Source of the DNA: Xanthobacteraceae bacterium
Lineage (GTDB): Bacteria > Pseudomonadota > Alphaproteobacteria > Rhizobiales > Xanthobacteraceae
Length of the DNA stretch: 47,997 nucleotides
Assembly: GCA_019745775.1 (NCBI GenBank)
Contig: JAIESR010000133.1
Location: 1 to 47,997 of the forward strand
Direction: 5' to 3'
Shown: positions 9,619 through 22,553 of the stretch, piece after piece
How the letters are laid out: every line of letters starts with the position of its first letter
Position numbering within the stretch: the first letter of the stretch is position 1
The notes under the pieces: model-generated
What the model saw: the letters and a program-made list of their open reading frames with translations, nothing else
What the model was told of the DNA's origin: nothing
Database searches by the model: none
Position numbers and translations under genes: made by a program

Positions 9619-9841
9619 GCCCGAACGCAGAAGATGGACGATGTGGGATCATAGGGTGGCGCGGACGGCCGGTCACGTCCCCCGGTCGCGTGCCTCGGCC
9701 AGTCCTTGGCGGCCTTCGCCGGCGCGCGGCCGTAGTTCCGCCCGCCAATCCGCGGTCAACACACCGGGTTCCCACGCCGCCCTTGTCCGGGCAGGCCGAC
9801 GCAGCTACATAGCGCCGGGGCGTTGGCCCGCCGTTCGGCCC

Positions 9842-9931
9842 GGAGAGGTGGCAGAGTGGTTGAATGCACCGCACTCGAAATGCGGCATACGGGCAACCGT
9901 ATCGGGGGTTCGAATCCCTCCCTCTCCGCCA
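9842..9931 (+). tRNA. tRNA-Ser (anticodon CGA)
   Basis: The acceptor stem ggagagg/cctctcc, discriminator G and encoded CCA are all present. The anticodon stem ccgca/tgcgg (9869-9873 and 9881-9885) closes the loop ctcgaaa with anticodon CGA at 9876-9878, which reads UCG. A long variable arm, typical of serine tRNA, and the T-loop ggttcgaatcc follow. The 3' 14 bp serve as the attachment site of the integrative element and are restored by the insertion. Confidence 0.97.
9918..9931 (+). other. attL: left attachment site in the tRNA-Ser 3' end
   Basis: The 14-bp string ctccctctccgcca forms the 3' end of tRNA-Ser and recurs at 20694-20707. Its copy downstream lies beside the integrase gene, as expected for a tRNA-targeting P4-type integrase. 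Confidence 0.9.
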
Positions 9932-9990
9932 ATAGTCGACTAAGTACCTGATTTATAAAGATAATTTCCAGAGTGGCCTGTCTGCCCCCG

Positions 9991-10005
9991 ATTGTACCCA
10001 CGAAC
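9991..10005 (+). promoter_or_regulatory. Terminal 15-bp motif, left copy (candidate integrase arm site)
   Basis: attgtacccacgaac lies 59 bp inside the left attachment site and is repeated exactly at 20553-20567 near the right end. The reverse strand reads gtgggtacaat, a motif of the kind expected for arm-type sites of P4-class integrases. This role is inference. Confidence 0.6.
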
Positions 10006-10150
10006 GAGAATAGCGAAGGTGAATCAGGTGGTTAAGCCCGATATTGAACCGTCGCGCGTACTTGGGTGTAGTGCATCCTCTGATTGGTAAAGCCTCCGCC
10101 ACACCCGCGTTGACGAGCTATCATCGCAAGTGATTCTTGCGGAGGCCACC

Positions 10151-10666
10151 ATGGAAGCTCTCCTCGGGTTACTGCGGCTCGCGCTCGACAACGGATGGCG
10201 ACTCGCACTCCTTATCGTCGCGTTCTGCGGGCTGGCGCTCGCTGCGCCGAAGGTCGGATTGGCGCTGCCGGCGCAGGTCGGCGAGTGGGCGGGGGCCGGC
10301 TTGATATTCGGCATCGCTGTGCTGGTAGCGTCGATGGTCACGCGCGCGTTCGGTGCTGCAGCAACAAGGTGGCGGCGAACGGGCCGCGAGATGGACGAAG
10401 CCGCGGACGTGTTCGCTAACTTGTCGACGCTTAGCCCCGACGAACTACAGGCGTTTGTCGAGATGCTCGAATCCCGCGCGCCCCGCTTCGAAGTGCACAT
10501 CATGAGCGTTGCGTATCCGCTGCTGCGGAAGGGCATCCTGCGGGCAGTCCGGCAGGTCGCAGGCGTGAACTGGCTGTGCGAGTTTCACCCAGCCATCGCC
10601 CACTGTCGGGACTCGCTGCTTACGGAGGCCCAGGCGGCGTTGAACCAGCGCGGGCGGGGGTTTTAG
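10151..10666 (+). CDS. SieB-like (superinfection exclusion) membrane protein
   Basis: 171 residues from ATG 10151, chosen because GGAGG lies 6 bp upstream; a GTG at 10130 has no such site. Two membrane segments are visible near the start (WRLALLIVAFCGLALAA and WAGAGLIFGIAVLVASMVT). A cytoplasmic domain follows with LSTLSPDELQAFVEML and SVAYPLLRKGILRAVRQVAGVNWLCEFHPAIAHC. This order (two helices, an LSPDEL-type motif, then a short domain that speaks of a gain of a second copy) resembles the SieB superinfection exclusion family. The similarity is by pattern only. It is the first gene inside the element and is separated by one base from the next gene, so the two probably form an operon. Confidence 0.6.
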   Translation: MEALLGLLRLALDNGWRLALLIVAFCGLALAAPKVGLALPAQVGEWAGAGLIFGIAVLVASMVTRAFGAAATRWRRTGREMDEAADVFANLSTLSPDELQAFVEMLESRAPRFEVHIMSVAYPLLRKGILRAVRQVAGVNWLCEFHPAIAHCRDSLLTEAQAALNQRGRGF

Positions 10667-10667
10667 G

Positions 10668-11216
10668 ATGGCCGACACTCCTCCCGACCCGCGTAGCAGG
10701 TTCTTCGAAGAATCGAAGGTCGCCGTCGACCGACACCGCCAGCGTTCGTGGGAATACGAGAAGGAAGCGATAGCGCTCGTCAATAACGGCTTGCGAGCAT
10801 TGACCTACTTGAACGGTGGCGGCCTCGTTGCCATGCCCGCGGCCGTCGCCCTGTTCCAGACAGACATCCAGAAGACCAAGGAAGCGCTGCTCACGGCAGC
10901 GCTCCTGTTCGTGGCTGGGTTGCTGCTCGTCCTCCTGACGAACGCCGCCTCATTCTTCGTCATGGCTCGGCGCGCGGAGTCGGAAACGTTCCGGGAATCG
11001 CAGCAGATGTTCCTGCTGGCCGCGGCACACTTCGCCGGCGACGATAAGACTCGCGCTGGCTACGTCCAGCAAGCCGCCGAGCAAGAGAGCACGGCCAACA
11101 GGCAATTGGAGCGCTCCAATTGGTACCGACGCGCCGGGATACTCACATTCTGGCTGGCGTTCGGTTGCTTCGTAGCTGGCTGTTACTACGGGTCGAAGGC
11201 CGTCCTGGCCCCCTAG
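10668..11216 (+). CDS. Membrane protein of unknown function
   Basis: 182 residues. Start ATG 10668 lies one base after the stop of the SieB-like gene, implying coupled translation. Residues 1-40 are soluble and charged. Three hydrophobic stretches follow: LNGGGLVAMPAAVALF (about 49-64), LLTAALLFVAGLLLVLLTNA (about 74-93), and ILTFWLAFGCFVAGCYYG (about 158-175), with a long charged helix between the second and third. No catalytic motif is seen and the family is not recognised. Its place beside a SieB-like gene suggests a role at the membrane, perhaps exclusion of other phages or a toxin-immunity pair; that is speculation. Confidence 0.75.
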   Translation: MADTPPDPRSRFFEESKVAVDRHRQRSWEYEKEAIALVNNGLRALTYLNGGGLVAMPAAVALFQTDIQKTKEALLTAALLFVAGLLLVLLTNAASFFVMARRAESETFRESQQMFLLAAAHFAGDDKTRAGYVQQAAEQESTANRQLERSNWYRRAGILTFWLAFGCFVAGCYYGSKAVLAP

Positions 11217-11278
11217 ACCCCTCCACCAAATAGCAAGGATTTGGGCGTAGCCTGGACGTGGGCACGGGGGCCTTGGCC

Positions 11279-12241
11279 ATGGGCAATAGAGCGATAGCGA
11301 AGCGCGGTGGCGTAGCAAATCCTTGGACCGGAAGGATTATTCGGGCATGGCACTCGACGCTTGAGGGCTTCTTCGAGTGCGGCCGATTGCTCGCGAAGGC
11401 CAAGGACGACCTGGACCACGGCGAGTTCCTCGCCATGGTCGAACGGGACCTGCCGTTCGGCCCCCGCTACGCCCAGATGCTCATGCGGGTGGCCGAGGAC
11501 CCGCGCCTTACAAATGCGAACCACGCTTCGCATTTGCCGCCAAGCATCACCTCGCTCTACCTGCTCTCCCGGCTCGATGACCTGACGTTCCGGCGTGCGC
11601 TGAGCCGCGGGGATATATCCGCCGAGATGGAGCGGGCGGACGCGGCTCTCCTGCTAAGCAAGACCAAGCGGCTCGCGGGTCAGAAGGCGGCGGCCGAGCA
11701 GGAAGTCTCGGGCAGGGTGCAGCTATGGTCGGCCGACCCGCCATGGCCCACATCCTACGGCCGGCCGTATAAGACCCTGCCGCTCGACCGCATCAAGAAC
11801 CTGCGTCTCGCGCCGAACGGGAAGGCTAGCAGCGACCTCAAGCATCCTAGCGTCGCCGAGGCGTCCGCCCAGACCGCTGCCATCGGGATGTGGGCGGTCG
11901 ACGAGCTACTGGCCGAGGCCGAGGCGACCCTGGCGGCCTGGGGATTCGGGCTGGTCGGTCGGGTAATCTGGGACAAGGGAAGTCACTCGCGGCCGGGCCG
12001 CGCGACGCTAATGCAGCATGAGTTTCTGTTGCTCGGCACCCGCGGGGCGGCGGTCCCGGTGTGGAAGCCGCGGAGCGTGGTCACCATCTCGAAGGCGGGC
12101 CTGCGCGACTCCGAGAAGCCCGAGGAGTTCCGCGCGATGCTGGTGAAGATGTTCCCGCTGTTCGTAAACCGCTGTGAGTTATTCGCGCGACGCCGCGTTG
12201 AGAAGTGGACGCCGTGGGGCAATCAGGTCCCTGCCGAGTAG
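11279..12241 (+). CDS. DUF3102-like domain fused to MT-A70 adenine methyltransferase
   Basis: 320 residues from ATG 11279 (a GTG at 11258 would add seven residues; neither has a strong ribosome site). The N-terminal part, residues 15-80, reads WHSTLEGFFECGRLLAKAKDD, HGEFLAMVERDLPFGPRYAQ and MLMRVAEDPRL, as in DUF3102 proteins of phages and plasmids. The C-terminal domain has the MT-A70 catalytic motif DPPW (residues 153-156) with YGRPYKTLP, later VGRVIWDKGSHSRPGR and HEFLLLGTRG. MT-A70 enzymes methylate N6 of adenine in DNA or RNA. No restriction endonuclease is adjacent, so it is probably a solitary modifier that protects or marks the element. Confidence 0.85.
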   Translation: MGNRAIAKRGGVANPWTGRIIRAWHSTLEGFFECGRLLAKAKDDLDHGEFLAMVERDLPFGPRYAQMLMRVAEDPRLTNANHASHLPPSITSLYLLSRLDDLTFRRALSRGDISAEMERADAALLLSKTKRLAGQKAAAEQEVSGRVQLWSADPPWPTSYGRPYKTLPLDRIKNLRLAPNGKASSDLKHPSVAEASAQTAAIGMWAVDELLAEAEATLAAWGFGLVGRVIWDKGSHSRPGRATLMQHEFLLLGTRGAAVPVWKPRSVVTISKAGLRDSEKPEEFRAMLVKMFPLFVNRCELFARRRVEKWTPWGNQVPAE

Positions 12242-12293
12242 ATTGCTCAATCGAAACGACCATCACCGTTCACACGGCCGTGAGCAACGATGG

Positions 12294-12323
12294 TTGACGG
12301 CGGCGGACGAGCACCCCTACAAT
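12294..12323 (+). promoter_or_regulatory. Candidate sigma-70-type promoter of the replication operon
   Basis: TTGACG at 12294-12299 and TACAAT at 12318-12323 are separated by 18 bp. It lies 214 bp upstream of the HTH gene and just before a run of stem-loops. Alphaproteobacterial promoters are variable, so this is a candidate only. Confidence 0.4.
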
Positions 12324-12380
12324 CGCACCCGTGGCCTGCGAAGAGTAGGTTGAGCGGCTGGAGCGGCAGTACCTCCAGGA

Positions 12381-12464
12381 CCCTGCATCAGGGTTGAATG
12401 CAACGGCCCCGTGGCAAGTTCGCTACTGGGGCGCGACCGGGAGGTCGCAAGGGGCGGACACCCC
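12381..12464 (+). promoter_or_regulatory. Structured leader upstream of the HTH-primase operon
   Basis: Four hairpins can be drawn in 84 bp: ccctg-cat-caggg (12381-12393), gcccc/ggggc (12406-12410 with 12428-12432), gcgacc-ggga-ggtcgc (12433-12448) and gggg/cccc (12451-12464). No ORF convincingly covers them. In phage P4 an RNA (CI) in the leader of the alpha-primase operon controls immunity; an analogous RNA here is possible but unproven. Confidence 0.45.
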
Positions 12465-12536
12465 AGCCTTTAAACATCCGATGCCGACCATGAGCCGCGA
12501 CGCGTCAATCGCGGCGCTATGCATCGGAGTACGCCC

Positions 12537-12779
12537 ATGCACGCCCAGCCCGTTATTGCCGCGCCGTCCGGCGCTGCCCCGCCGCCAGAGCCTGCGGCCT
12601 ATACGGTCGACGAGTTCTGCGTCGCCCATCGCTTCAGCCGTGAGACGCTCTACGCCCTATGGCGCAAGGGCCTTGGCCCTGCGCGCTTCAAGGCTCTATC
12701 GCGCACCCTAATCTCGAAGGAAGCCGCAGCCGCGTGGCGTCGCCAGCGCGAGAAGGCGGAGGCGGCCAATGGCAGATAA
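12537..12779 (+). CDS. Small helix-turn-helix DNA-binding protein (AlpA/excisionase-like)
   Basis: 80 residues from ATG 12537, which has GGAGT at 12526. After a proline/alanine-rich N-terminus it shows YTVDEFCVAHRFSRETLYALWRKGLGP followed by LISKEAAAAWRRQREK, a helix-turn-helix of the MerR/AlpA/Xis superfamily (HTH_17 type). Such proteins in satellites act as excisionases or as activators of integrase and replication genes. It overlaps the primase gene by 11 bp, so the two are expressed together, which points to a role in replication control more than in excision alone. Confidence 0.8.
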   Translation: MHAQPVIAAPSGAAPPPEPAAYTVDEFCVAHRFSRETLYALWRKGLGPARFKALSRTLISKEAAAAWRRQREKAEAANGR

Positions 12780-15303
12780 TAGAGAGGCCGCGCTGGCGGG
12801 CGCGGCCGAGGGGGAACTTACATCAGTTGGTACTGAAGGTTCCGCACATATAGCACCGCCGGATTCCCGCAGCAAGCCCGCGCCGGACGTCCCGAAGGCA
12901 GTCGCGTTCCTCAAGGAGCGCTGCGACCTGCTCGGCGTGTACCCGATTCTGAGCGCCAAGTTCGTGGCCGCGAAGGGCAGGTTCGAGACCAAGGCGTTCC
13001 CGCCGCCCGTCGACTGGACGAAGGTCAGCAAGTGGATTGCCGACCGGCAAGGCAAGGCGAACATCTACTATGCGGTGAACCGTTCCTCGGGCAACGTCGA
13101 TAAAAAGACGTCGCGCGCGGACGTGACCGAGATGGTCGCGCTTCACGTCGACTGCGACGCGCGGCCTATGCCGCAGGGCGAAGAGCCTGGGGCTTGGGTC
13201 GCCAAGGAAGTCGACCGCATCTCAAAGAAACTCGAAGCCTACGACCCGCCGCCGAGCCTCATCGTTCACTCTGGCGGGGGCGCGCAGGCGTTCTGGAACC
13301 TGGAGCAGCCCGAGGCGGTCGACGGCGACCTGACGATTGCCGAGGACCTGAAGCTCTACAATCTCAAGCTGGAGCAGGACCTGGAGGGCGACTCGTGCCA
13401 CTCGCTCGACCATATCATGAGACTACCAGGAACAATTAATGTTCCTAACGAGGGCAAGCGCAAGAAGGGCCGCGTCCCAGCGCTCGCCACGGTCCATCTC
13501 TCCAAGCCCGAGCGGCGCTACAAGCTGGCGCAGTTCGAGAAGGCCACCGTGGCGCAGCCCGAGGACGTCGGCTTTAGCGACTCCGGCAAGTACGAGCGCG
13601 TCGCGCCGAACGACCCGCGGCTCAAGGGCCTGGACGAGAAGTGGGTCGCGCTCGGCCGCATCGGCGATACGGCCGGCGACTACCTCGGGCAGGACGGTAA
13701 GCCAGACCGCAGCCGCGCCGCCCTGGCGTTCGCCACGGCGTGCCTGCGCGCCAAGGTCGCCAAGCAGGTGCTCGCCAGCGTCCTCATGGACCCTGCGTGG
13801 CTCATCGGGGAATGCATCCGCGACAAGGGGGGCGAGACGCAGCGGCAACTGAAGCGGCTCATCGAGCGCGCCGCGAAGTTCGTGGACGAGGACTTCAGCA
13901 AGCCAGCCGTGCTGGGCAAGAACACGCTGCGCAAGAACACGGAGAAGTACCGCGTCCGAGTCAGCCCGCACCATATCCATAGCAACGGCGACCATCTGGA
14001 CTACAAGGCTGGTGCCTACGTGGTCGTAGAGAAGGACGAAGTCGAGTCAGGCATGTTTCGATTCCTGGACGCGGCCAAGCGCCTGACGGAGAACGACGAA
14101 GGCAAGCAAATCCTGGTGCCGTTCAACCCAGGTCCGAAGGACGTGACCGACCACGTCGCCGCGCTACGCTGGACCGGGCACACGGCAGCGGTTCCGCCGT
14201 GCTGGCGCGACGGCCGCGCGAGTCCCGACCCGACCGACGTCATCTCCTTCCCGAACGGAATCTTGGACCTGCGCACTGGGTCCTTCGACGCGCCAGACCC
14301 GATGCTGTTCACTACCAACGCGGTCGGCTTCGACTACGACCCGAAGGCACCGGACCCGAAGAACTGGAAGGAGTTCCTCAAGCAAATCTACGGCGGTGAG
14401 CAGGACCAAATCGACGCGCTTCAGGAGGCGTTCGGCTATACCATCTCGTCGGACGTAAGCCAGGAGAAGGCGTTCATGTCGATTGGCCCCAAGCGCAGCG
14501 GGAAGGACACTCAGAAGAACATGCTCTGCGCTCTGTTGTCGCCCAACGCGGTCTGCGGCCCGACGCTCAACTCGATGGCCACCAACTTCGGCATGAGCGC
14601 GTTCGTTCACAAGCAGGTCGCAATCGTTGGCGACATGCGCCTCGGGCATAAGGCGGACCAGGATTTGCTCGCGGAGAACGTGCTCAAGCTCACGGGGCGC
14701 GGGCTGTTCACCTTTGACCGCAAGTTCAAGGAGCATTGGACCGGCCGCTTGCCGTGCAAGCTCTGGCTCATCTCGAACGAGCGTCCTCGCATCAAGGATG
14801 TCAGGGGCGCGCTGGCCAGCCGCTTCATCACGTTCAACACGCGCACCTCGTTCTACGGCAAGGAGGACTCGAACCTCTTCCGTGACAAGCTGGCACCAGA
14901 AGCACCGGGCGTGTTGCTCTGGGCACTGGAAGGTCTGCGCCGCGTCCGGGAGCGTGGGTCCTTGGCCGAACCAGCCTGCTCGGTCGAAGCGCGGCAGACG
15001 TTGGCACGGGAAGGAAGCCCGGTCCTTGCTTTTGTCGAGGAGCGAGTTTCGCTCGTCCCCGATGCCGAGATGACCAAGGACGAACTGCACGCCGCCTACA
15101 AGGAGTGGTCCGAGAAGAGCGGCATGCACGCCAAGGACAAGGCCGTGTTCATGCGCGACCTGGAAGCGGTCGTCGGGACCAAGGTGAAGCCGGTCAAGCT
15201 GACGCGAGACGGCGAGCGCGTGTGGGGAGTGCGTGGGGTCAAGCTCCTGGGTCCTGGGCCGCGGGTCGTTCGACCCGAGAGACAGCCGGACATCCCGTTC
15301 TGA
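12769..15303 (+). CDS. Primase-polymerase fused to D5/P4-family helicase
   Basis: 844 residues. The N-terminal archaeo-eukaryotic primase-polymerase domain has the metal-binding HVDCD (D128, D130), a VHSGGGAQAFW strand with H167, and SLDHIMRLPGTIN (H215 region). A linker (250-440) leads to the D5_N block (FPNGILDLRTG, near 494). The SF3 helicase has Walker A GPKRSGKDT (573-581), a B-like strand VAIVGDMRL (617-625), and the sensor region KLWLISNERPRIKD. This is the replication initiator and helicase of the element, comparable in plan to P4 alpha protein, and would replicate the excised circle. An iteron-like inverted repeat begins 6 bp after the stop, a plausible target of this protein. Confidence 0.92.
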   Translation: MADNREAALAGAAEGELTSVGTEGSAHIAPPDSRSKPAPDVPKAVAFLKERCDLLGVYPILSAKFVAAKGRFETKAFPPPVDWTKVSKWIADRQGKANIYYAVNRSSGNVDKKTSRADVTEMVALHVDCDARPMPQGEEPGAWVAKEVDRISKKLEAYDPPPSLIVHSGGGAQAFWNLEQPEAVDGDLTIAEDLKLYNLKLEQDLEGDSCHSLDHIMRLPGTINVPNEGKRKKGRVPALATVHLSKPERRYKLAQFEKATVAQPEDVGFSDSGKYERVAPNDPRLKGLDEKWVALGRIGDTAGDYLGQDGKPDRSRAALAFATACLRAKVAKQVLASVLMDPAWLIGECIRDKGGETQRQLKRLIERAAKFVDEDFSKPAVLGKNTLRKNTEKYRVRVSPHHIHSNGDHLDYKAGAYVVVEKDEVESGMFRFLDAAKRLTENDEGKQILVPFNPGPKDVTDHVAALRWTGHTAAVPPCWRDGRASPDPTDVISFPNGILDLRTGSFDAPDPMLFTTNAVGFDYDPKAPDPKNWKEFLKQIYGGEQDQIDALQEAFGYTISSDVSQEKAFMSIGPKRSGKDTQKNMLCALLSPNAVCGPTLNSMATNFGMSAFVHKQVAIVGDMRLGHKADQDLLAENVLKLTGRGLFTFDRKFKEHWTGRLPCKLWLISNERPRIKDVRGALASRFITFNTRTSFYGKEDSNLFRDKLAPEAPGVLLWALEGLRRVRERGSLAEPACSVEARQTLAREGSPVLAFVEERVSLVPDAEMTKDELHAAYKEWSEKSGMHAKDKAVFMRDLEAVVGTKVKPVKLTRDGERVWGVRGVKLLGPGPRVVRPERQPDIPF

Positions 15304-15308
15304 ACAGG

Positions 15309-15418
15309 AGTCCAGGGTGTCCAGGGTCTTCTCTATTGTCGCGTGTGAAGTGGTTCGTCGTTCAAGAGTGGGTGCGAATATGAGTGTGCAATTGGGGAAT
15401 GCCTGGACACCCTGGACT
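15309..15418. repeat. Inverted iteron-like repeat, candidate replication origin
   Basis: The 17-bp arm agtccagggtgtccagg (15309-15325) is perfectly inverted at 15402-15418, with 76 bp between. The left arm is itself two tandem copies of the 9-mer gtccagggt (15310-15327). It begins 6 bp after the primase-helicase stop. Facing iterons next to an initiator gene suggest an origin; this is inference. Confidence 0.7.
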
Positions 15419-15995
15419 GCTCCTGGCTGTCCTCGGGCTGGAGGGTGCCCCGTCGCCTCCCGCCCGCGCCGGAACAGCCCCGCATACCGACCCTTGAGAG
15501 ACCCAAGCGCGCCCGTTCCGCCCCGACCCACGGGGCCGGAATGGCTAGGACAATCAACAGCGCGGGAGCATCGCGGAGCGTGGGCAGCGCCTTGGTTGGG
15601 GCCGGGGCGCGATACAAAAGGATGCGCCCACGGCCCAGGCCGCTCCGGTGTGGGTCCGTTCGTGGGTCCGCGCGCGAGCATCGCACGTTGCCCTACGGAC
15701 ACGTGCGTGCGTGGCGGACGCAAGTTCCGCCGGCCCGCCGCCCGTAGGCCCCTAAAAAGTTCTGCCAGCGCGGGACGGCGGGGTATTGGCGACCGGGACG
15801 TAAAGGCTTCAAACGCGCGCTGCATCGCCGACAGCCCGGCACACAGCGCGCGCCCCACGTCCTAGGCCACATGCCCCGCCTACGCCGGCCGCGCGCATGT
15901 ACGCCGCTCTTCTCGGGCTCAGAGTCCGCGGCCCGCCCCGGCCCTCCGATAAAATCCGCGTATGAGATTCGATTGCGCAATCTAAAAAAATTCTC
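15419..15995. other. Gene-poor region of the element
   Basis: No ORF here has a credible composition or ribosome site; the open frames are low-complexity Arg/Pro/Ala shadows. The stretch lies between the iterons and a terminator hairpin. It could be origin DNA or a non-coding RNA, but I see no specific structure besides high G+C. A 12-bp palindrome, gattgcgcaatc, sits at 15971-15982 and could be an operator. Confidence 0.4.
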
Positions 15996-15996
15996 A

Positions 15997-16017
15997 AAAA
16001 AGCGACCATCGCTTTTT
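15997..16017. terminator. Bidirectional intrinsic terminator-like hairpin
   Basis: Stem aaaaagcga/tcgcttttt (9 bp) with loop cca, in an A+T-rich pocket. It could end the HTH-primase transcript or isolate the next operon from read-through. Confidence 0.65.
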
Positions 16018-16064
16018 GCACCATCGTTCGCAGCGTCGCGCCAAGCCATTACCAAATCGACATC

Positions 16065-16089
16065 ATCGACGTCACCATCACACGTCGAT
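16065..16089. promoter_or_regulatory. Inverted repeat upstream of the unknown operon
   Basis: atcgacgt (16065-16072) and acgtcgat (16082-16089) form a two-half-site operator-like repeat with a 9-bp gap, 119 bp before the first gene of the four-gene operon. Its binding protein is unknown. Confidence 0.35.
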
Positions 16090-16208
16090 TGGACGTGCGC
16101 TCGCGTCAGAGCAACAACACGCTGCGATACGGCGCACGGCGGTCGCGCCTCGGGCGATAGCACGACGCCGGAAGCCGACGCGTCGCCGTCACGTAGTTAG
16201 GAGTGAAC

Positions 16209-16376
16209 ATGAAGAAGCCGCCGCTGTTCGACCGAGTCGATGATGTGTTGTCGCGTGAGGGGCTGAACGCGCACGAGAAGCTGGTCGCGCTGCGAGCCAT
16301 CTCAGCAATGCAGGCACATCTTGTCGAACACCAAGACCAAGAACTTGCCACCGACATCAGCGCGAGCGACCGATGA
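16209..16376 (+). CDS. Small protein of unknown function (operon gene 1)
   Basis: 55 residues beginning MKKPPLFDRVDDVLSREG and then NAHEKLVALRAISAMQAHLVEH. ATG 16209 is preceded by aggagt with good spacing, and the stop overlaps the next start (ATGA), which supports that it is a real gene although short. The sequence predicts two helices with no known motif. It opens the operon 16209-17995. I do not recognise the family. Confidence 0.7.
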   Translation: MKKPPLFDRVDDVLSREGLNAHEKLVALRAISAMQAHLVEHQDQELATDISASDR

Positions 16377-16702
16377 AGCACCTCGACGCCGAGACCGGTG
16401 AACAGGTCAGCCGCCGCGAACTTGCTCGCCGCCGCGCCGAACGCTCCGCGGAGCGGCAAGCACCGGCCGCTACGCCCGTCGCGACCGCCGAGGCCGCTCG
16501 GGCCGAATGGGACCCGATGTTGGCGAAGCGGCTCGCGCGCGCACGGGAACGCGCCGCCGCGCCGCCTCCAGAGCCTCAACCATCGCCTCCTCCGCCGCCC
16601 TCCTCGGGTGACCGCCGCCTGCAGGGCGTCCGGTACAGCCTGACTCGCGGCGAAGGCTACATCTGCGACGGCTCCAGACTGAACTTCCAATTCCGAACCT
16701 AG
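16373..16702 (+). CDS. Proline/arginine-rich small protein of unknown function (operon gene 2)
   Basis: 109 residues. ATG 16373 overlaps the stop of the first operon gene. It has a basic N-terminal helix (QVSRRELARRRAERSAERQ), a WDPMLAKRLARARERAA helix, a run of prolines and serines (PPPEPQPSPPPPPSS), and a short C-terminal part GVRYSLTRGEGYICDG. The linker-rich build fits an adaptor or nucleic-acid-binding protein. No family recognised. Confidence 0.65.
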   Translation: MKHLDAETGEQVSRRELARRRAERSAERQAPAATPVATAEAARAEWDPMLAKRLARARERAAAPPPEPQPSPPPPPSSGDRRLQGVRYSLTRGEGYICDGSRLNFQFRT

Positions 16703-16715
16703 AAGGGGGAACCTC

Positions 16716-17519
16716 ATGCCAACTTCATCCGAACGTCTTCAGCGCCTGAACGAACTGACCAGCGTTCCAGCCAATCGAATCCGCGGCGATGTCCCGCAGA
16801 GCCTGCACCCGGACATGCTGCTGCCCGAGGGCGAGAACCTCATCGACGACGACTCGGGCATTGGCGGCATCGACGCATATACGGCGGGCCGCGGGGCGAT
16901 GCGGGAGATGCTGGAGAGCTTGACCAACATCACCGACGCCGTGCGAGAACACACCATTCAGCGCCCGGTGCCCAATCAAATCGTCGCGCCCGGCAACAAG
17001 CCGGTGCTTCAGAAGGTCGTCGACCCGGCGCGGGCGCTTGAGGTTCGCGACGGCATGGCCATCTCGGCCAAGCGCGTCGCTCAGGCGTATGAGAAGAGCA
17101 TCGCCGTCTTCGACGCCAAGCTCACGCGCGCAGAGGAAGCCGTCGCGAGTAAGCTCCGCGACCCTCGGGCAGACAGCACCGTGTCCCAGGACATCCGCCG
17201 GTTCGTGTTCTCGCTGCCGGCGAACGAGCGTAGGGCCTGGGTCGAGGGACGTATCCAAGAGGGCGACCTTACTGTGTCTCACGCAGTGCTTGGGGCGTCG
17301 CCCTATGCCTCGGGCCTTGACCCGAAGGGTACGAACCTGCTGCGGGATTTAGCAGCCCGCACGTTCGCACCGGCCGAGGTGCGCGCGCACCAGAACCTTC
17401 AGAGTGCTAAGCGCAAGGTGGACGTCGCCTTCCATACCTGGGGCAAGGAGTACGTCAAGAAGTTGCCGGCCGCACCCAGCGACGCGCCTGCGCTCAAGAA
17501 ACTCAAGGGAGCAGCCTGA
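16716..17519 (+). CDS. Protein of unknown function, largest gene of the satellite operon
   Basis: 267 residues. A purine-rich ribosome site (gaaggggg) precedes ATG 16716. The N-terminal 60 residues are acidic (LLPEGENLIDDDSGIGGIDAYTAG). A long helical middle (residues 60-150) contains DAVREHTIQRPVPNQIVAPG and LEVRDGMAISAKRVAQAYEKSIAVFDAKLTRAEE. The C-terminus is basic (LKKLKGAA). No membrane segment or catalytic motif is seen. It overlaps the next start by one base (TGATG), so this is a single transcript. Function unknown; a structural or packaging role, as in other satellites, would fit the position but is not shown. Confidence 0.8.
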   Translation: MPTSSERLQRLNELTSVPANRIRGDVPQSLHPDMLLPEGENLIDDDSGIGGIDAYTAGRGAMREMLESLTNITDAVREHTIQRPVPNQIVAPGNKPVLQKVVDPARALEVRDGMAISAKRVAQAYEKSIAVFDAKLTRAEEAVASKLRDPRADSTVSQDIRRFVFSLPANERRAWVEGRIQEGDLTVSHAVLGASPYASGLDPKGTNLLRDLAARTFAPAEVRAHQNLQSAKRKVDVAFHTWGKEYVKKLPAAPSDAPALKKLKGAA

Positions 17520-17995
17520 TGGTCGAGCCAACGATAGTAGAATGGAAGGCGCGCGCTCTGCGCGCCGAAGAATGGGTGCGCAAGGCCGCGCAGCGCGCGG
17601 TAGGCACAGTCGACGCCGCGACGCTATGCGCGCTTGATGGCGAGGAGGCCCGAGACCGCATGCGCGCGCAGGAGGCGGAGGCGGAACGGCTGACGGTCGA
17701 GCGCGACGCCGCTATCGCAGCCGAGCGCGAGCGGCAGCGCGTCGATAGCTGGTACAATGCCAGACTTGAGTCCGCGCAGCGGTCAGATGCTGACCTTCGC
17801 GAGTTCTTGTCAGGCGACCAGCAGCGGCATCGAGAGGACATACCGCCCGGCTGGCCTCCTGGCGCGTCGCCGGACCTTCCGCTCGACTATGACGCCCTAC
17901 CTTCGGGCGATGACGCGTCCGACACCTCGGTCGGCAAATTGCTGGCGTCCCTCGGCGTAGACCAGCCTGGGCTGACTAAGCCGGCGCATTCATAG
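17519..17995 (+). CDS. Coiled-coil protein of unknown function (operon gene 4)
   Basis: 158 residues, start ATG 17519 coupled to the previous stop. The first 110 residues are a charged helix or coiled coil (ARALRAEEWVRKAAQRAVG, DGEEARDRMRAQEAEAERLTVERDAAIAAERERQRVDSWYNARLESAQRS). The C-terminal 50 are proline-rich and acidic (PPGWPPGASPDLPLDYDALPSGDDASDTS). It is the last gene of the operon and converges on the lower-GC gene at 18049. Family not recognised; coiled-coil composition resembles phage scaffold or tape-related small proteins but this is weak. Confidence 0.75.
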   Translation: MVEPTIVEWKARALRAEEWVRKAAQRAVGTVDAATLCALDGEEARDRMRAQEAEAERLTVERDAAIAAERERQRVDSWYNARLESAQRSDADLREFLSGDQQRHREDIPPGWPPGASPDLPLDYDALPSGDDASDTSVGKLLASLGVDQPGLTKPAHS

Positions 17996-18009
17996 GCATG
18001 CGCAGGCCG

Positions 18010-18047
18010 GCGGCCGGTGCCCGCGCTCCTCCTCGGGTGCCGGCCGC
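18010..18047. terminator. Stem-loop between convergent genes
   Basis: gcggccgg (18010-18017) pairs with ccggccgc (18040-18047) across a 22-nt interval that contains a second ccgc/gcgg-type pairing. No T-run follows, so a terminator role is only likely because the genes converge here. Confidence 0.35.
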
Positions 18048-18048
18048 G

Positions 18049-18843
18049 CTAAACGCGCTTGGAAGCAGCTTTAGCTCTGCGCTTCCTGGCGGCAACCTTC
18101 TTGGCTGTGCTGCTCAAGTAGCTTGGTGAGACGGAGATTGGGACATAGTGAGCGCCCGGCAAAGCGCAGTACTTGTTGCGCAACTTGGAAGGTACCCGCT
18201 CTGTCACCATCCCATAGGTCCTAAAGATTCCCATGGTTGCTTTGACATGGAATGATGTAATCAAATTATAGAGATGCAGGATGAACTTATGCGCAACATC
18301 GAGCCCACGGTCGACATCTCCATTACCTGCGTGTTCATAAATCGGACGACTGCTAATCTCTTCTGCGAAGTCATAAAGGGTCAGCCCCTTGAACCTGCCG
18401 GCCATGAACCGTAGTGGGTGGTTCTCAGCGAGGCGCTTAACAGAAGCCAGTGCGTGCTGCCGGTCATAGTGGAACGATATTTTGTTCCGCAGAATCGCTG
18501 CCCATTTGGCGCTCGTAATTTCTTGAGCAATCGGCTCGTACGACTTCGACAGTTCCGCTAGCAGCGGGTCCGTGCTAGCCTTGTTCTGCCTGAAGAATAC
18601 GCTGCAGAGCTTCCCGTATTCGAAGATTTTCGAAACGAGGATGCGGTCGACAGTGAGCTTGCGAGCGACGATGAAGCTCGCTTCGAACTCATTCGCGCCC
18701 TTCGGGTTATGTTCGAACATTATGTATGGCAGCAGAAGTGTCAGTTCGTTGCAGCACATACCCGACGTGACCAAGAAGCCCTGATAGCTCTCAGGGATTG
18801 CCTGAAATGCCTTGACGTCGAATCGGAAAATGAATGCGTCCAT
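18049..18843 (-). CDS. Orphan protein of unknown function, lower-GC cargo
   Basis: 264 residues. ATG 18843, MDAFIFRFDVKAFQAIPESYQGFLV. The sequence is mostly helical, with KYCALPGAHYVPIS near the C-terminus and a basic tail (KKVAARKRRAKAASKRV). No membrane helix or enzyme motif is evident. Its A+T content is visibly higher than the neighbouring element genes (for example 18230-18300), and it is the only large gene on this strand between the operon and the integrase side, which suggests a recent gain. A defence role is possible from position only. Family not recognised. Confidence 0.75.
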   Translation of the reverse strand: MDAFIFRFDVKAFQAIPESYQGFLVTSGMCCNELTLLLPYIMFEHNPKGANEFEASFIVARKLTVDRILVSKIFEYGKLCSVFFRQNKASTDPLLAELSKSYEPIAQEITSAKWAAILRNKISFHYDRQHALASVKRLAENHPLRFMAGRFKGLTLYDFAEEISSRPIYEHAGNGDVDRGLDVAHKFILHLYNLITSFHVKATMGIFRTYGMVTERVPSKLRNKYCALPGAHYVPISVSPSYLSSTAKKVAARKRRAKAASKRV

Positions 18844-18867
18844 GACGTCGCCCTGCTCAAGTTCTAT

Positions 18868-19179
18868 TCAAGCAGCCGGCTGCTGCGCCTTCACATAATC
18901 GCCGAACGCCTCGATGCGGTCTTTGAGACGGCGCTGCTCGCGTACGTTCTGCTTACGCTCTTCGCCCCGTCCGTACTTCTTCAGTTCTCCGCACAGGGCA
19001 GCCAGTCGCTTAAGGTCCTCGACGAAAGCGTCGAGACGCTGGATTACCTCGGCGTCCAGTTCGGCTGCGCGGCCCCGCTTTGCCGCGTCGGCTGCCTTCC
19101 TGGCCAGCGCGTCGTTAGCTCGGCTGTCAAATTTGACCCTGGCAACTACCTCCAGGGCGGCTTTATCCCATTGGCTCAT
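18868..19179 (-). CDS. Small helical protein of unknown function
   Basis: 103 residues from ATG 19179, preceded by AGGAGG. MSQWDKAALEVVARVKFDSR is followed by two charged helices (AADAAKRGRAAELDAEVIQRLDAFVEDLKRLAALCGELKKY and KQNVREQRRLKDRIEAFGDYVKA). No motif is recognised. It lies 61 bp after the integrase stop on the same strand and is probably expressed from the integrase promoter. The longer open frame upstream (to 19377) overlaps the integrase and has no ribosome site, so the short start is used. Confidence 0.7.
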   Translation of the reverse strand: MSQWDKAALEVVARVKFDSRANDALARKAADAAKRGRAAELDAEVIQRLDAFVEDLKRLAALCGELKKYGRGEERKQNVREQRRLKDRIEAFGDYVKAQQPAA

Positions 19180-19240
19180 GGGCACCTCCTGCTCGTAGAC
19201 GGGCGGCCTGATACTCGATTCGCCGGCCCCAGCCGAGCGC

Positions 19241-20509
19241 TCACTTGGTCTTACGAATGGCCACCACCTTGCCTCCGGCCGCCTTGCCATGGGCGCAGTA
19301 CTTGGCCCAGTCGTCCATGAGCCTGCGGCGCTTGTCGACCGCAGTGGAGCGGCGGTAGGCCGCCTCGGTCTTGTCACTCACCTTATGCCCGTATGCGAAC
19401 TCAATGGTCTCTCGGTCGTAGTTCGTCCGGTCGCCAGCCCAGTCGCGGAAGCTCGACCTGAATCCGTGGACGGTCGCCTCCTCCTTCGGCCAGCCCATGT
19501 CCGCGAGGTACTTGCTGAGCGTGTTCTCGCTGAGCGACTCGCCGTCCTCGTTGGGGAACAGGATGGCGTCCGGGTCGTCGCCGAGGTTGAGCTTGCGCAG
19601 CACCGCGACCGCCTCCTTGCTGAGCGGGACGAGGCGCTCCTTGCCGTACGCTTTGCGGCCCGGCAGCGCCGGGACGGTCCAGAGGGCGTTCTTGAGGTCG
19701 ACCTCGCTCCGCGTGGCCAGCCGTACCGCGCCGGAACGGGCGCTCGTGAGTATCAGGAACCGCAGGGCCAGCGCGGACATGGCGTGGCGCTTCGACAGGT
19801 CGATATAGAACTCGGGCAAGTCGGCGTAGGGCATGGCTGGGTGCGACTCGACCGGCGTGACCTTGCGCGGATTCGGGAGCAGGGCGTCCAGGTTGCCCTT
19901 CCAGCGCGCCGGATTATCACCCGTGCGGTAGTCGCTGACGGTTGCCCAGTTCAGTATCGTCTCCAGGCGCATGCGGACGCGCGTGGCGGTCTCGGTCTTG
20001 GTGGTCCATAAATCGTCCTTCTGGAGAACCTTGAGCACGAGGCCCTTGTCGACTGCCTGCACCGGCAGGTGGCCGATAACCGGGTAGGCGTAGTCCTCCA
20101 TGGTCTGGGTCCACTGCCCAGCGTGCTTCTCGTTCGACCACTCGGGCTTCTTCGCCTCGATGCAGCGCTCGGCACAGTCCTTGAACGTCACCGACTTGGC
20201 CGCCTCGACCCGAACCGCCTGCCTGCGCTGCTTGCGCGCCTCTATCGGGTCGGTCCCATCTCGGGCGAGCGCGCGGCACTTCTTGGCCTCGCGGCGAGCG
20301 TCCGCCAGCGACACGTCGTCGAGCGGCCCTAGGCCCATGTCCCGCTGCTTGCGGTCGAGCATGAACCTGAATATCCAGGAGCGATGCAGCCGCTCCGATT
20401 CGTCACGGCTCTCTCGGACTTGGAGGTAGAGCCCGCGACCATCGGAATGGAGCCCCGGCTCCAGGGTCGCCAGGGCCGTGGGAATGAGCTTGTTGTAAGA
20501 GCGCGCCAT
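19241..20509 (-). CDS. P4-type tyrosine integrase
   Basis: 422 residues from ATG 20509 (MARSYNKLIP), the typical DUF4102-type N-terminus with GLHSDGRGLYLQV and WIFRF; a GTG at 20563 would extend it by 18 residues. The arm-binding and core-binding domains follow (FKDCAERCIEAKKPEWSN). The catalytic residues are R258 (SARSGAVRLATRSEV), H348 and R351 (HGFRSSFRDWAG), H375 (YGHK) and tyrosine Y385 (AAYRRS). The enzyme recombines the attachment site in tRNA-Ser. It faces away from the right attachment site, and its 5' region carries the 15-bp end motif, suggesting that integrase binding autoregulates it. Confidence 0.95.
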   Translation of the reverse strand: MARSYNKLIPTALATLEPGLHSDGRGLYLQVRESRDESERLHRSWIFRFMLDRKQRDMGLGPLDDVSLADARREAKKCRALARDGTDPIEARKQRRQAVRVEAAKSVTFKDCAERCIEAKKPEWSNEKHAGQWTQTMEDYAYPVIGHLPVQAVDKGLVLKVLQKDDLWTTKTETATRVRMRLETILNWATVSDYRTGDNPARWKGNLDALLPNPRKVTPVESHPAMPYADLPEFYIDLSKRHAMSALALRFLILTSARSGAVRLATRSEVDLKNALWTVPALPGRKAYGKERLVPLSKEAVAVLRKLNLGDDPDAILFPNEDGESLSENTLSKYLADMGWPKEEATVHGFRSSFRDWAGDRTNYDRETIEFAYGHKVSDKTEAAYRRSTAVDKRRRLMDDWAKYCAHGKAAGGKVVAIRKTK

Positions 20510-20552
20510 CGGGGCAAGTTCTCCGCCATACCTCTCCGCCGTTCCACCCACA

Positions 20553-20567
20553 ATTGTACCCACGAAC
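20553..20567 (+). promoter_or_regulatory. Terminal 15-bp motif, right copy (candidate integrase arm site)
   Basis: Exact repeat of 9991-10005. On the reverse strand gtgggtacaatt is followed directly by a second gtgggtggaac, giving two tandem arm-like sites. They lie at the start of the integrase gene (over the alternative GTG start). Confidence 0.6.
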
Positions 20568-20693
20568 TGTGTCCTGATGGGGGCGGAGTCGGCCGGACGG
20601 GCTCGGACGCATACGGAAGGGTTAATCCGATGGAATGGGCACTTCTTGACATCGTCGGACGGGGGCGGACATGCTAGGACAGCATTCCGCGGA

Positions 20694-20707
20694 CTCCCTC
20701 TCCGCCA
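20694..20707 (+). other. attR: right attachment site
   Basis: ctccctctccgcca repeats the tRNA-Ser 3' end (9918-9931) exactly. It lies about 185 bp beyond the integrase start codon. Confidence 0.9.
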
Positions 20708-20861: not shown

Positions 20862-22553
20862 ATGGAGATTGATGTGTCTGCCTTCGGTCACCCGGACAAT
20901 CCGCGGATTCTCTCCGACGCAATTTTGGAAGTCTACAACCTCCAGAGCGCGAATCGCGTCTGGGCTTTGATGGGACCGAGCGGCGCCGGGAAGTCCAATC
21001 TCCTGCTTGAGGCTGCAAAGATCATCCAGGCGCAGAAGGTCCCCTGTTTCCATCTTCCTTCTGACCGTCGCCTCAACAGCCTGGTGCCCTTCGGTGGCTT
21101 CTCAGCTCCGGCATTCAAGGATCTGGACGATTTGTGGTCGCAGATCGTGTCGGCACTCTCGGCTTCACACCCTGACGGGTCGCGCGCCATACCCAAGACC
21201 GACCTCAGCGCTGTTTTGGGATTTCTTTTTCTGCAGCTCGTCGTCGCCGACCGCAGCGAGGAGTCGCGTTACATCTCCGAGCTGTACGCCCATGAAAAAG
21301 GCCGGGTTGAGGTAAAGCCCACAAAGAAACCAAGCCTGGTCAAAGCGGCGGAGGCTAAGCTTCAGACGATCCTGGATTGCCGGATCACGATTCGCGATCA
21401 GGTTGGGCCGGATAGTGCTCCTGATGTCCGCGTCACCCGGGGGGAGCAGACATTTGACGTCACGGCGCTGTCGGACGGCGAAAAGCAGATGATGCTGCTC
21501 GGCCTCTTCTTGATGGGGCCTCCGTCGGCGCAACGATGCGTCTTTCTGGTTGATGAACCGGAGCTGTATCTCAATGAAGCCGGAGCGGTTCAGTTTTGGG
21601 AGCGGCTGGAGCAGGCATTTCCTTCAGCGATGTTCGTCTATGCGACTCACAGCCTCGTTTTCGCGACCAGGCCCGGTGTCACCAATGCGCTTCTTGTCGC
21701 TCAAGGCCGCAAGATCGAAGCCATAAACGTACTCGATAGTCCCGACGCAATGCGGCAAGTCGTCGGCGCGCGGATTCAATTGCTGCGATCTGAAAAATCA
21801 CCCGTCTTCTGTGAAGATGGTCTGGCCAAACTGATCATCGGCGATCTCTTTCGCGGTCGCCAAGACATCGAGCTGATCGCGCTCGGGAGCTGGAAAACCG
21901 TCGCCGCCGCGGCCAAAGGCGAAGCCGGTTGGGCGTATTTCCGATCGGCGGGCCCGAGGTTTTGCGGCATCATCGATCGCGATACGCGAGATCAAAATGA
22001 AATTGCGGAACTGGAGGCGCGTGGGCTCTTTTGCTTTCCGCTCTTTGAAACCGAATCTTTCTTGCTTGTCCCGGAAATCGCGACGTGGATGCTTACTGTC
22101 GCCGCAGGCACGAGTGTGTCCAGCGACGAATACCTCGACTGTCTGGTCGAGTGCGCCCGCTCGCAAGTGGGACCCACGCTGGACAGGGTCCGATCGCATC
22201 TTTGCCACCAGGCCATGCCGCGGCTGGATTTCGCGGCTTCCTCAAAAAAGGTCGATCAAATCGCCGTCACCGCACCCACGTCTCTCAAGAAGGATTTCGA
22301 AAAGCGCGCCGCCGGGTTGTACGCGGCACTCGACGCCAGGGACGCCGGTGCAATCTTGCGGCTCTTCAAGGGCAAACGTCTGTATCAAGCCCTCAGAGGC
22401 CGCACCAGAACACAGTTCAACGTCGCCCTCCCGGAAAAGCCGCAGCAGCAATACAATCAAGTTCGCGAGCATCCGGCGTTTTCAGCGATTGTCGCCGGCC
22501 TCCCCTGGCTCAGAGATTTTACGGAGCGGGTGTCCCGTCATTTGTCGGCTTAG
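20862..22553 (+). CDS. AAA ATPase fused to a DUF4435/TOPRIM-like domain (merged PARIS/OLD-like candidate)
   Basis: 563 residues. The ABC-type ATPase has Walker A GPSGAGKS (38-45), signature LSDGEKQ (203-209), Walker B VFLVDEPELYL (227-237) and a switch ATHSL (H263). The second domain, from about 310, has SPVFCEDGLAKLIIGDLF (E318), an IIDRDTRDQNE acidic pair (D372, D374) and FETESFLLVP. This is the DUF4435/TOPRIM pattern of the AriB part of PARIS and of OLD-family nucleases. AriA-AriB proteins occur as two genes or merged; this single chain is shorter than I would expect for a merged form. It lies 155 bp beyond attR, and its G+C is lower than its neighbours. No partner gene is seen. The defence role is inference. 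Confidence 0.82.
   Translation: MEIDVSAFGHPDNPRILSDAILEVYNLQSANRVWALMGPSGAGKSNLLLEAAKIIQAQKVPCFHLPSDRRLNSLVPFGGFSAPAFKDLDDLWSQIVSALSASHPDGSRAIPKTDLSAVLGFLFLQLVVADRSEESRYISELYAHEKGRVEVKPTKKPSLVKAAEAKLQTILDCRITIRDQVGPDSAPDVRVTRGEQTFDVTALSDGEKQMMLLGLFLMGPPSAQRCVFLVDEPELYLNEAGAVQFWERLEQAFPSAMFVYATHSLVFATRPGVTNALLVAQGRKIEAINVLDSPDAMRQVVGARIQLLRSEKSPVFCEDGLAKLIIGDLFRGRQDIELIALGSWKTVAAAAKGEAGWAYFRSAGPRFCGIIDRDTRDQNEIAELEARGLFCFPLFETESFLLVPEIATWMLTVAAGTSVSSDEYLDCLVECARSQVGPTLDRVRSHLCHQAMPRLDFAASSKKVDQIAVTAPTSLKKDFEKRAAGLYAALDARDAGAILRLFKGKRLYQALRGRTRTQFNVALPEKPQQQYNQVREHPAFSAIVAGLPWLRDFTERVSRHLSA

Follow-up and report, generated by a model that had tools for sequence, protein, structure and literature searches.

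Gene content and boundaries of the element

The DNA analysed here (the window) is a 47,997-nucleotide stretch from a Xanthobacteraceae bacterium (contig JAIESR010000133.1, C104 in our numbering). Our subject is an integrative element within it, which carries twelve genes (g1 to g12, Table 1) and lies at the single tRNA gene that ARAGORN finds in the window, a tRNA-Ser(CGA). The element is bounded by two copies of a 14-bp core, CTCCCTCTCCGCCA, the first of which is the 3' end of the tRNA gene, with 10,776 bp between the copies. CTCCCTCTCCGCCA occurs exactly twice in the genome (6,295,573 bp in 147 contigs), both times at an element end, against ~0.16 copies per genome expected from base composition and none found for a reversed control pattern in the same genome. 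A second exact repeat, ATTGTACCCACGAAC, sits ~60 bases in from the tRNA-side core and ~127 bases in from the distal one, and resembles a pair of integrase arm sites, a role suggested by its sequence and placement. Because the core is found only twice, ATTGTACCCACGAAC lies inside the ends and the integrase faces inward, we take the ends to be real and the length to be 10,776 bases. The element is real and well bounded.

The first-pass annotation of this DNA, made from the sequence alone, had described the tRNA 3'-end repeat, an inward integrase and a helix-turn-helix (HTH) gene ahead of a primase-helicase. All of these were confirmed, the genes by domain matches (integrase domains; D5_N and DUF5906; a weak HTH_17), and the HTH gene g4 overlaps the start of the primase-helicase gene g5 (12779 versus 12769). 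It had also noted no recognisable structural or conjugation genes, and this held when Pfam and PHROGs were searched with ten of the proteins (to E = 1) and Pfam alone with the integrase and g6 (to E 0.1): no structural, packaging or conjugation family stood out beyond chance among the 12 proteins, and neither Pfam nor PHROG revealed a relaxase or transfer gene. The sole noteworthy structural signal was a gp58-like match to g8 (E 0.2). Queries from relatives for the large and small terminase subunits (TerL and TerS, nine each, tblastn) gave no credible match to a hidden terminase in the window, the best (E 0.04) lying outside the element.

Downstream of g5 there is a 905-bp gene-poor gap, followed by two small open reading frames (ORFs; g6 and g7) and then g8. 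The frames of g5, g8 and the integrase, g12, are open along their entire length. Relatives of g12 with 38-49% identity are present in 27 of 100 other genomes (E<=1e-60). The GC content of g10 is 52%, compared to 64% for the whole element, and its RNKISFH stretch is, in our view, reminiscent of HEPN RNases; g10 is possibly defence cargo.

The left flank of the element is matched in 8/8 genomes of the genus, its own included. In genome G304, a different island occupies the same tRNA-Ser(CGA) and uses the same 14-bp core (locus L090, copies at 8641 and 19465, 10,824 bases apart; island 8641-19478). Its integrase is 42.5% identical to that of the window, it has no match to the window primase, and from their sequence we presume its other genes to be DUF3800-like, HTH, recombinase and Res-like. 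Downstream of tRNA-Ser(CGA), a single core copy is present in the 15.8 kb available for G345 and in the 5.9 kb for G421, while the contigs of G370, G407 and G390 stop too near the tRNA to judge copy number. For the empty tRNA site that the first-pass annotation had in mind, these single copies gave no clean empty junction, the right flank of the window being unmatched there. Since the G304 island shares the core and G345 and G421 have a single copy, we regard tRNA-Ser(CGA) as an integration site with changing occupants. Directly past the distal core, at 20862-22553, is a gene for a PARIS-like 563-aa ATPase (PADLOC AriAB 8.6e-14; Pfam AAA_21 below cut-off; GC 58.5%), which could be a separate defence gene that shares the hot spot.

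Table 1. Features of the window element (positions in the window; aa, amino acids; att, attachment site).
Feature	Position	Strand	Evidence or remark
tRNA-Ser(CGA), integration site	9842..9931	+	ARAGORN; Rfam RF00005 60.1 bits
att core CTCCCTCTCCGCCA, 14 bp, tRNA-side copy	9918..9931	+	tRNA 3' end
Arm-type-like exact repeat ATTGTACCCACGAAC, tRNA side	9991..10005	+	putative role
g1, 171 aa, weak SieB-like (superinfection exclusion)	10151..10666	+	Pfam SieB 2.6e-4, 21.1 bits, cut-off 26
g2, 182 aa, probably membrane, no family	10668..11216	+	hydrophobic stretches by eye
g3, MT-A70-type DNA methyltransferase	11258..12241	+	MT-A70 5e-11, DUF3102 1.5e-5, PHROG 359 1e-31
g4, HTH, excisionase/AlpA-like position	12537..12779	+	HTH_17 0.001 (below cut-off); PHROG 66 excisionase 1.5e-4
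g5, primase-helicase, 844 aa	12769..15303	+	D5_N 7.4e-11, DUF5906 4.1e-7, Pox_D5 3.7e-4
Iterated inverted repeat, candidate replication origin	15309..15418		17-bp arms (15309-15325, 15402-15418), just past primase stop
g6, 55 aa, no Pfam family	16209..16376	+
g7, 109 aa, no family	16373..16702	+	in the place of TerS-TerL of many relatives
g8, 267 aa, family marker, no known family	16716..17519	+	predicted helical
g9, 158 aa, directly after g8	17519..17995	+	contains PPGWPPG
g10, 264 aa, possible HEPN-like defence cargo	18049..18843	-	GC 52%; RNKISFH stretch
g11, 103 aa, no family above cut-off	18868..19179	-
g12, tyrosine integrase, inward-facing	19241..20563	-	Arm-DNA-bind_3 4.8e-17, Phage_int_M 1.6e-29, Phage_integrase (PF00589) 2e-9
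Arm-type-like exact repeat ATTGTACCCACGAAC, integrase side	20553..20567	+	overlaps 5' end of listed integrase frame; putative role
att core CTCCCTCTCCGCCA, 14 bp, distal copy	20694..20707	+

The marker gene g8

The g8 protein belongs to no Pfam, PHROG or NCBIfam family; across 16 aligned members, the best single-member matches were 0.0011 in PHROGs and 0.0083 in NCBIfam. A g8 profile compared with PDB sequences reached 0.018 at best, to a coiled-coil construct, and the predicted helical fold appeared to match generic bundles only. Known satellite capsid proteins, Sid included, were absent among the fold matches listed, to which we attach no weight for exclusion.

Relatives of g8 were nevertheless found in other genomes, with the own genome included in every count. 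A single-sequence search returned 5/298 genomes, a five-row profile 13/397 genomes of the order, and a 16-row profile 4/318 genomes of the class. Within the family, the 16-row profile matched 39/296 genomes at E<=0.001, of which 18 were retained at E<=1e-6; the other 21 were discarded as likely coiled-coil noise (E above 6e-5, matches confined to model positions 7-140). Because scoring was limited to the top few candidates of each genome, these counts are minimum values, and one g8 frame, in G301, was seen locally yet missed by the 16-row profile search of the family. A reversed-sequence control gave 0 matches among 4,902 ORFs. Outside bacterial chromosomes, g8 was unmatched in 50,697 phage records (three g8 queries) and in 72,556 plasmids (window g8 query), and a g8 peptide pattern, a method that catches close relatives only, had no match in viral contigs. 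A search of genome contigs returned 0 loci with the window g8 and two with the A3 query, those of G595 and G252.

Two observations concern the surroundings of g8. The element at L069 (G208), which has an integrase, HTH, primase and TerS, encodes, where g8 would stand, a 258-aa protein (13694-14470) that is unmatched by the g8 profile. The small gene after g8 contains a GWP- or WPP-containing motif in four of ten such genes compared, as PPGWPPG, AGAWPPG, PPGWPAP or PAGWPEG (window 17519-17995, L080, L109 and L144).

g8 recurs in tRNA-bounded units, often beside terminase genes

We examined 36 loci, 35 of them chosen for g8 and one (L169) for the terminase of the own genome; L108, an additional g8 piece on a short contig, stands outside the 35. 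A tRNA gene was found at 22 loci. In 13 of these (13/36 overall, counting the window) the ends are marked by an exact repeat, 14 bases or longer, into which part of the tRNA gene falls. The 13 bounded elements measure 8.3-15.8 kb between repeats and use eight tRNA isotypes: Ser (window), Leu (L081), Lys (L083, L143, L170), Pro (L109, L110), Glu (L112), Arg (L113, L115), Thr (L144) and Asn (L180, L184). The conserved synteny at tRNA-Ser that the first-pass annotation had envisaged was thus not borne out, as the bounded relatives use the seven other isotypes and tRNA-Ser(CGA) of G304 holds a different island. What does recur in these units is the integrase together with g8 and a primase or helicase, in many cases accompanied by the HTH gene and a terminase, and not fragments lacking a conserved unit. 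This recurrence supports the suggestion, also made at first pass, of a candidate undescribed alphaproteobacterial family. L109 and L110 flank one and the same tRNA-Pro(GGG) (G620, contig C24), one with a 53-bp repeat of its 3' part and the other with a 43-bp repeat of its 5' part.

In 19 of the 35 g8 loci, g8 is preceded by a TerL gene or piece that ends no more than 600 bases away; TerS lies upstream in 17/35, and a primase or helicase likewise in 17/35. The TerL and TerS references for these counts were drawn from the g8 loci themselves. PHROGs labels five of these TerL terminase large subunit; of the TerS, it recognises those of L081 and L083 and misses those of L112 and L115. In the fullest members (L081, L083, L109 and L112), the order is integrase, HTH, primase, TerS, TerL, g8. 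L144, with 10.4 kb between its tRNA-Thr repeats, carries integrase, primase, TerS, TerL and g8, and ties the window to the family beyond g8 through a full-length relative of the window primase. The TerL fall into two groups, L081/083/109/110 and L112/114/115/116/117, with no BLAST match between them at 1e-3, and the g8 family is therefore coupled to different packaging motors.

The 16 loci with no TerL directly upstream of g8 are of several kinds. Four, the window, L082, L118 and L143, have an integrase, a primase or helicase and g8 with no terminase found. L113 and L183 have TerS only, L173 and L178 have a tape measure without a terminase, and L175 has a TerL-like frame elsewhere. L080 and L174 are at contig edges, L111 and L145 are apparent remnants, and L176 and L185 also count among the 16. 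The last of the 16, L181, has an in-frame TerL-g8 fusion: a 402-aa frame at 9420-10628 joins the N-terminal half of TerL (1-213) with the C-terminal portion of g8 (250-387), and probably arose by deletion. At L170 (10125-14772, G969), TerL matches upstream of g8 fall in two pieces ~3.2 kb apart. An insertion in this TerL is likely, since the gene is split and an IS1595-type transposase is among the frames of the bounded relatives (member not named).

Primase-helicase and a candidate origin

The full-length g5 relative in L144 is 34.7% identical across 826 aa, while in three other relatives' primases the match to the window g5 is no longer than 293 aa. Coverage of 80% of g5 is reached in no phage or plasmid record; partial relatives occur in 354 plasmid records, and none was confirmed in viral contigs. 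The nearest solved structure is PDB 7ola ('DNA primase', 1.1e-6), which we take to be the SaPI5 primase-helicase.

The inverted repeat just past the g5 stop is built from TCCAGG repeats, and arms as long as its 17 bases did not arise in any of 300 dinucleotide shuffles of the 250 bases that come after g5. Repeats beyond shuffles, each specific to its element, are also present behind the primase or helicase gene of L112 (2/300), L114, L143 and L144 (0/300 each). L081, L083 and L109 have no such repeat within 250 bases after the gene, so a post-primase inverted repeat is not universal. When whole gaps were considered, L081 showed 12-base arms farther downstream (0/100 shuffles), and the L112 repeat was within chance (11/100). 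These repeats would fit an origin recognised by a primase-helicase that evolves along with it, though not as a general feature.

Cargo, morphogenesis genes and the search for a helper

In the 12 tRNA-bounded relatives, we scanned 97 further frames of >=80 aa, with core genes and g8 excluded. The results below refer to the top 25 of the 32 Pfam families found (97 frames) and the top 25 of the 36 PHROG families (96 frames, with the L115 tape measure excluded). Among the Pfam families listed were restriction-modification genes (Eco57I, MmeI, C-5 methylase), KAP NTPase, the Panacea domain, a predicted pPIWI-associating nuclease, an IS1595-type transposase, one AlpA (PF05930, 7e-6, in one protein), one tape measure and one DUF4055. 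Because restriction-modification genes, the KAP NTPase, the antitoxin-like Panacea domain and the predicted pPIWI-associating nuclease are present, the bounded relatives may carry anti-phage defence.

The PHROG families listed included one portal (1.6e-90, 1/96 proteins), a tape measure, neck proteins and methyltransferases. Neither the Pfam nor the PHROG families listed for these frames included one for a capsid or scaffold. The first-pass annotation had allowed for a capsid/portal set among the genes without a family. None was found in the window, while one larger relative, L180, does carry a portal gene, assigned by DUF4055, which we take to be a portal family. L115 encodes a tape measure (PHROG 6.4e-72), L093 a weak one and L117 a neck protein, and a tape-measure-like gene stands downstream of g8 in L115, L184, L093, L173 and L178. 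The tape-measure genes near g8 possibly reflect tail-length tailoring or prophage debris, and the morphogenesis genes of the larger relatives may, more generally, be helper-tailoring genes or prophage debris.

In the own genome (G000), a search for a helper found no PF04860 portal. There was one phrog_2 match, on contig C129 at ~72.6-79.0 kb (L169), from a model that also matches 13 of 14 control genomes. Here a TerL-like gene and a nearby portal-like frame, recognised by reading the sequence and without a Pfam family, lie among chromosomal genes. Since no other phage gene was noticed around them in the stretch read, L169 is at most a prophage remnant.

A probable satellite-like element and its alternatives

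What kind of element is this? With moderate confidence, we favour an integrative element that resembles a phage satellite and belongs to an alphaproteobacterial family, apparently without a name, of which g8 is the marker. The window element is very probably satellite-like, which supports the first-pass view of a satellite-like integrative element at a tRNA gene, and would be helper-dependent; g8 is probably a packaging or capsid-hijack protein.

In the mechanism we propose, the integrase inserts the circular element into the 3' end of tRNA-Ser(CGA) via the 14-bp core, a step shown at sequence level by the repeat and the G304 island. The HTH protein might act as excisionase or activator once a helper phage appears. 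The primase-helicase, an enzyme of established family, would replicate the circle, presumably autonomously, from the putative origin after its gene. Element DNA would then enter a helper procapsid, packaging by the helper being suggested by the relatives, and the window copy, which carries no terminase, unlike many relatives, would have to use that of the helper. The g8 protein would connect satellite DNA or its terminase to the foreign head, by engaging the portal or capsid or by redirecting capsid size. Judged from position and conservation only, such a connector is the most likely role for g8, and it fits a hijack-specific job because g8 often comes just after TerL, is kept in terminase-less members and is absent from the phage records searched. 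More speculatively, and with considerable doubt, the g8 family could comprise satellites with their own TerS-TerL motor and no shell, in which g8 is an adaptor that docks the motor on, or reshapes, the procapsid of an unrelated helper, and stripped members such as the window element keep g8 alone and recruit the helper's motor. A terminase-without-capsid layout raises the question of how a satellite motor engages a foreign portal, with g8 as a possible answer, and the shared marker gene offers a way to find such elements in alphaproteobacteria.

The window copy has neither TerS/TerL nor a structural gene, the 14-bp site is shared in G304 by an island apparently of cargo type, and partial primase relatives occur on plasmids (the 354 records above). 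These points would suit an integrative plasmid or genomic island, excised and then replicated through its own primase, with transfer by DNA uptake or by conjugation in trans. We consider this unlikely, as neither Pfam nor PHROG shows a relaxase or transfer gene in the window, g8 adjoins a terminase gene or piece in 19/35 loci, and the window g8 is unmatched on all plasmids searched.

The gene-poor gap and two small ORFs that stand where many relatives have TerS-TerL could instead mean that the window element is a decayed member, which lost these genes from between primase and g8, and packaging with them, so that only integrase, replication and cargo would be active, if anything. Other g8 loci do look decayed (L111, L145, L170, L181). 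However, the window primase, integrase and g8 frames are open at full length, there is no terminase remnant in the window, L143 has sharp att repeats without a recognised terminase, and L113 has TerS only; decay is accordingly an improbable account of the window element. Finally, although the order TerS-TerL-g8 resembles a phage packaging module and portal, neck-like or tape-measure genes are present in some of the larger relatives, an ordinary prophage remnant in which g8 is a normal phage gene beside TerL is less likely still, given that g8 is unmatched in the phage records searched, that no PHROG is better than 0.0011 across 16 g8 members, and that 8.3-15.8 kb elements with sharp att ends recur with no capsid family among those listed.

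Comparison with known satellite families

Among known satellites, P4 integrates at a tRNA site, and VEIMEs and tycheposons also use tRNA sites. P4-like satellites share with the window a size of ~10 kb, an integrase (window PF00589, 2e-9) and a primase-helicase (PMC8628076). The P4 components given there include Psu (PF07455), delta (PF04606), epsilon (PF10554) and alpha (PF03288), at 1e-5. Psu, delta and epsilon had no match in the window (E<=1 in ten proteins, E<=0.1 in the integrase and g6), and alpha matched the window primase at 3.7e-4 (21.3 bits versus a cut-off of 21.4), missing the 1e-5 threshold. P4 AlpA (PF05930) was also unmatched in the window, the g4 HTH matching PF12728 only (0.001). 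The P4 kinship put forward at first pass is therefore rejected, with Psu, delta and epsilon unmatched and alpha below threshold; the relatives of the window element differ further in carrying terminases.

The nearest known family in core gene content is PICMI of Vibrionaceae, which have an integrase, an AlpA-type HTH and a DUF5906/DUF3987 primase and no capsid-remodelling genes. Integration at fis is reported as their hallmark, they have a site for defence cargo, and terS was not identified in the PICMI studied (PMC10803314). The window has the integrase and a DUF5906 primase (PF19263 4.1e-7, 31.1 bits versus 27.6), and of the two models for the AlpA-type HTH (PF05930 or PF12728), PF12728 matches its HTH gene at 19.8 bits, below the cut-off of 27. 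It differs in lying at tRNA-Ser(CGA) rather than at fis, and many g8 relatives carry TerS and TerL, in contrast to the PICMI studied.

Some PICI have TerS, and cfPICI have TerS, TerL and a complete capsid set (PMC10690885). The g8 family resembles these in the TerS and TerL of its relatives and in 7ola as the nearest solved primase. In contrast to the complete capsid set of cfPICI, the 12 bounded relatives have no capsid and one portal among the families listed, and none of the cfPICI capsid, portal, protease, TerS or TerL was found in the window by Pfam or PHROG, or, for TerS and TerL, by tblastn.

PMC11389934 names PICI, cfPICI, PLE, PICMI, VEIMEs, tycheposons and soil satellites, and treats VEIMEs and tycheposons as integrative elements proposed as satellites; we liken these two to the window element by description only. 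The portion of PMC10187409 available contains no description of such an element, and an alphaproteobacterial family of this kind was not found in the open-licence PMC literature, although an earlier description elsewhere is possible. The g8 family is thus apparently undescribed. The satellite families named in PMC11389934 and PMC10803314 come mainly from enterobacteria, vibrios and Firmicutes, with some marine and actinobacterial hosts. For the g8 family, we propose as defining set an integrase, an HTH gene, a primase or helicase and g8 in a tRNA-bounded unit. A terminase directly upstream of g8, absent from the window, is a frequent but not universal trait of the family, while the defining set itself is present in the window in full.

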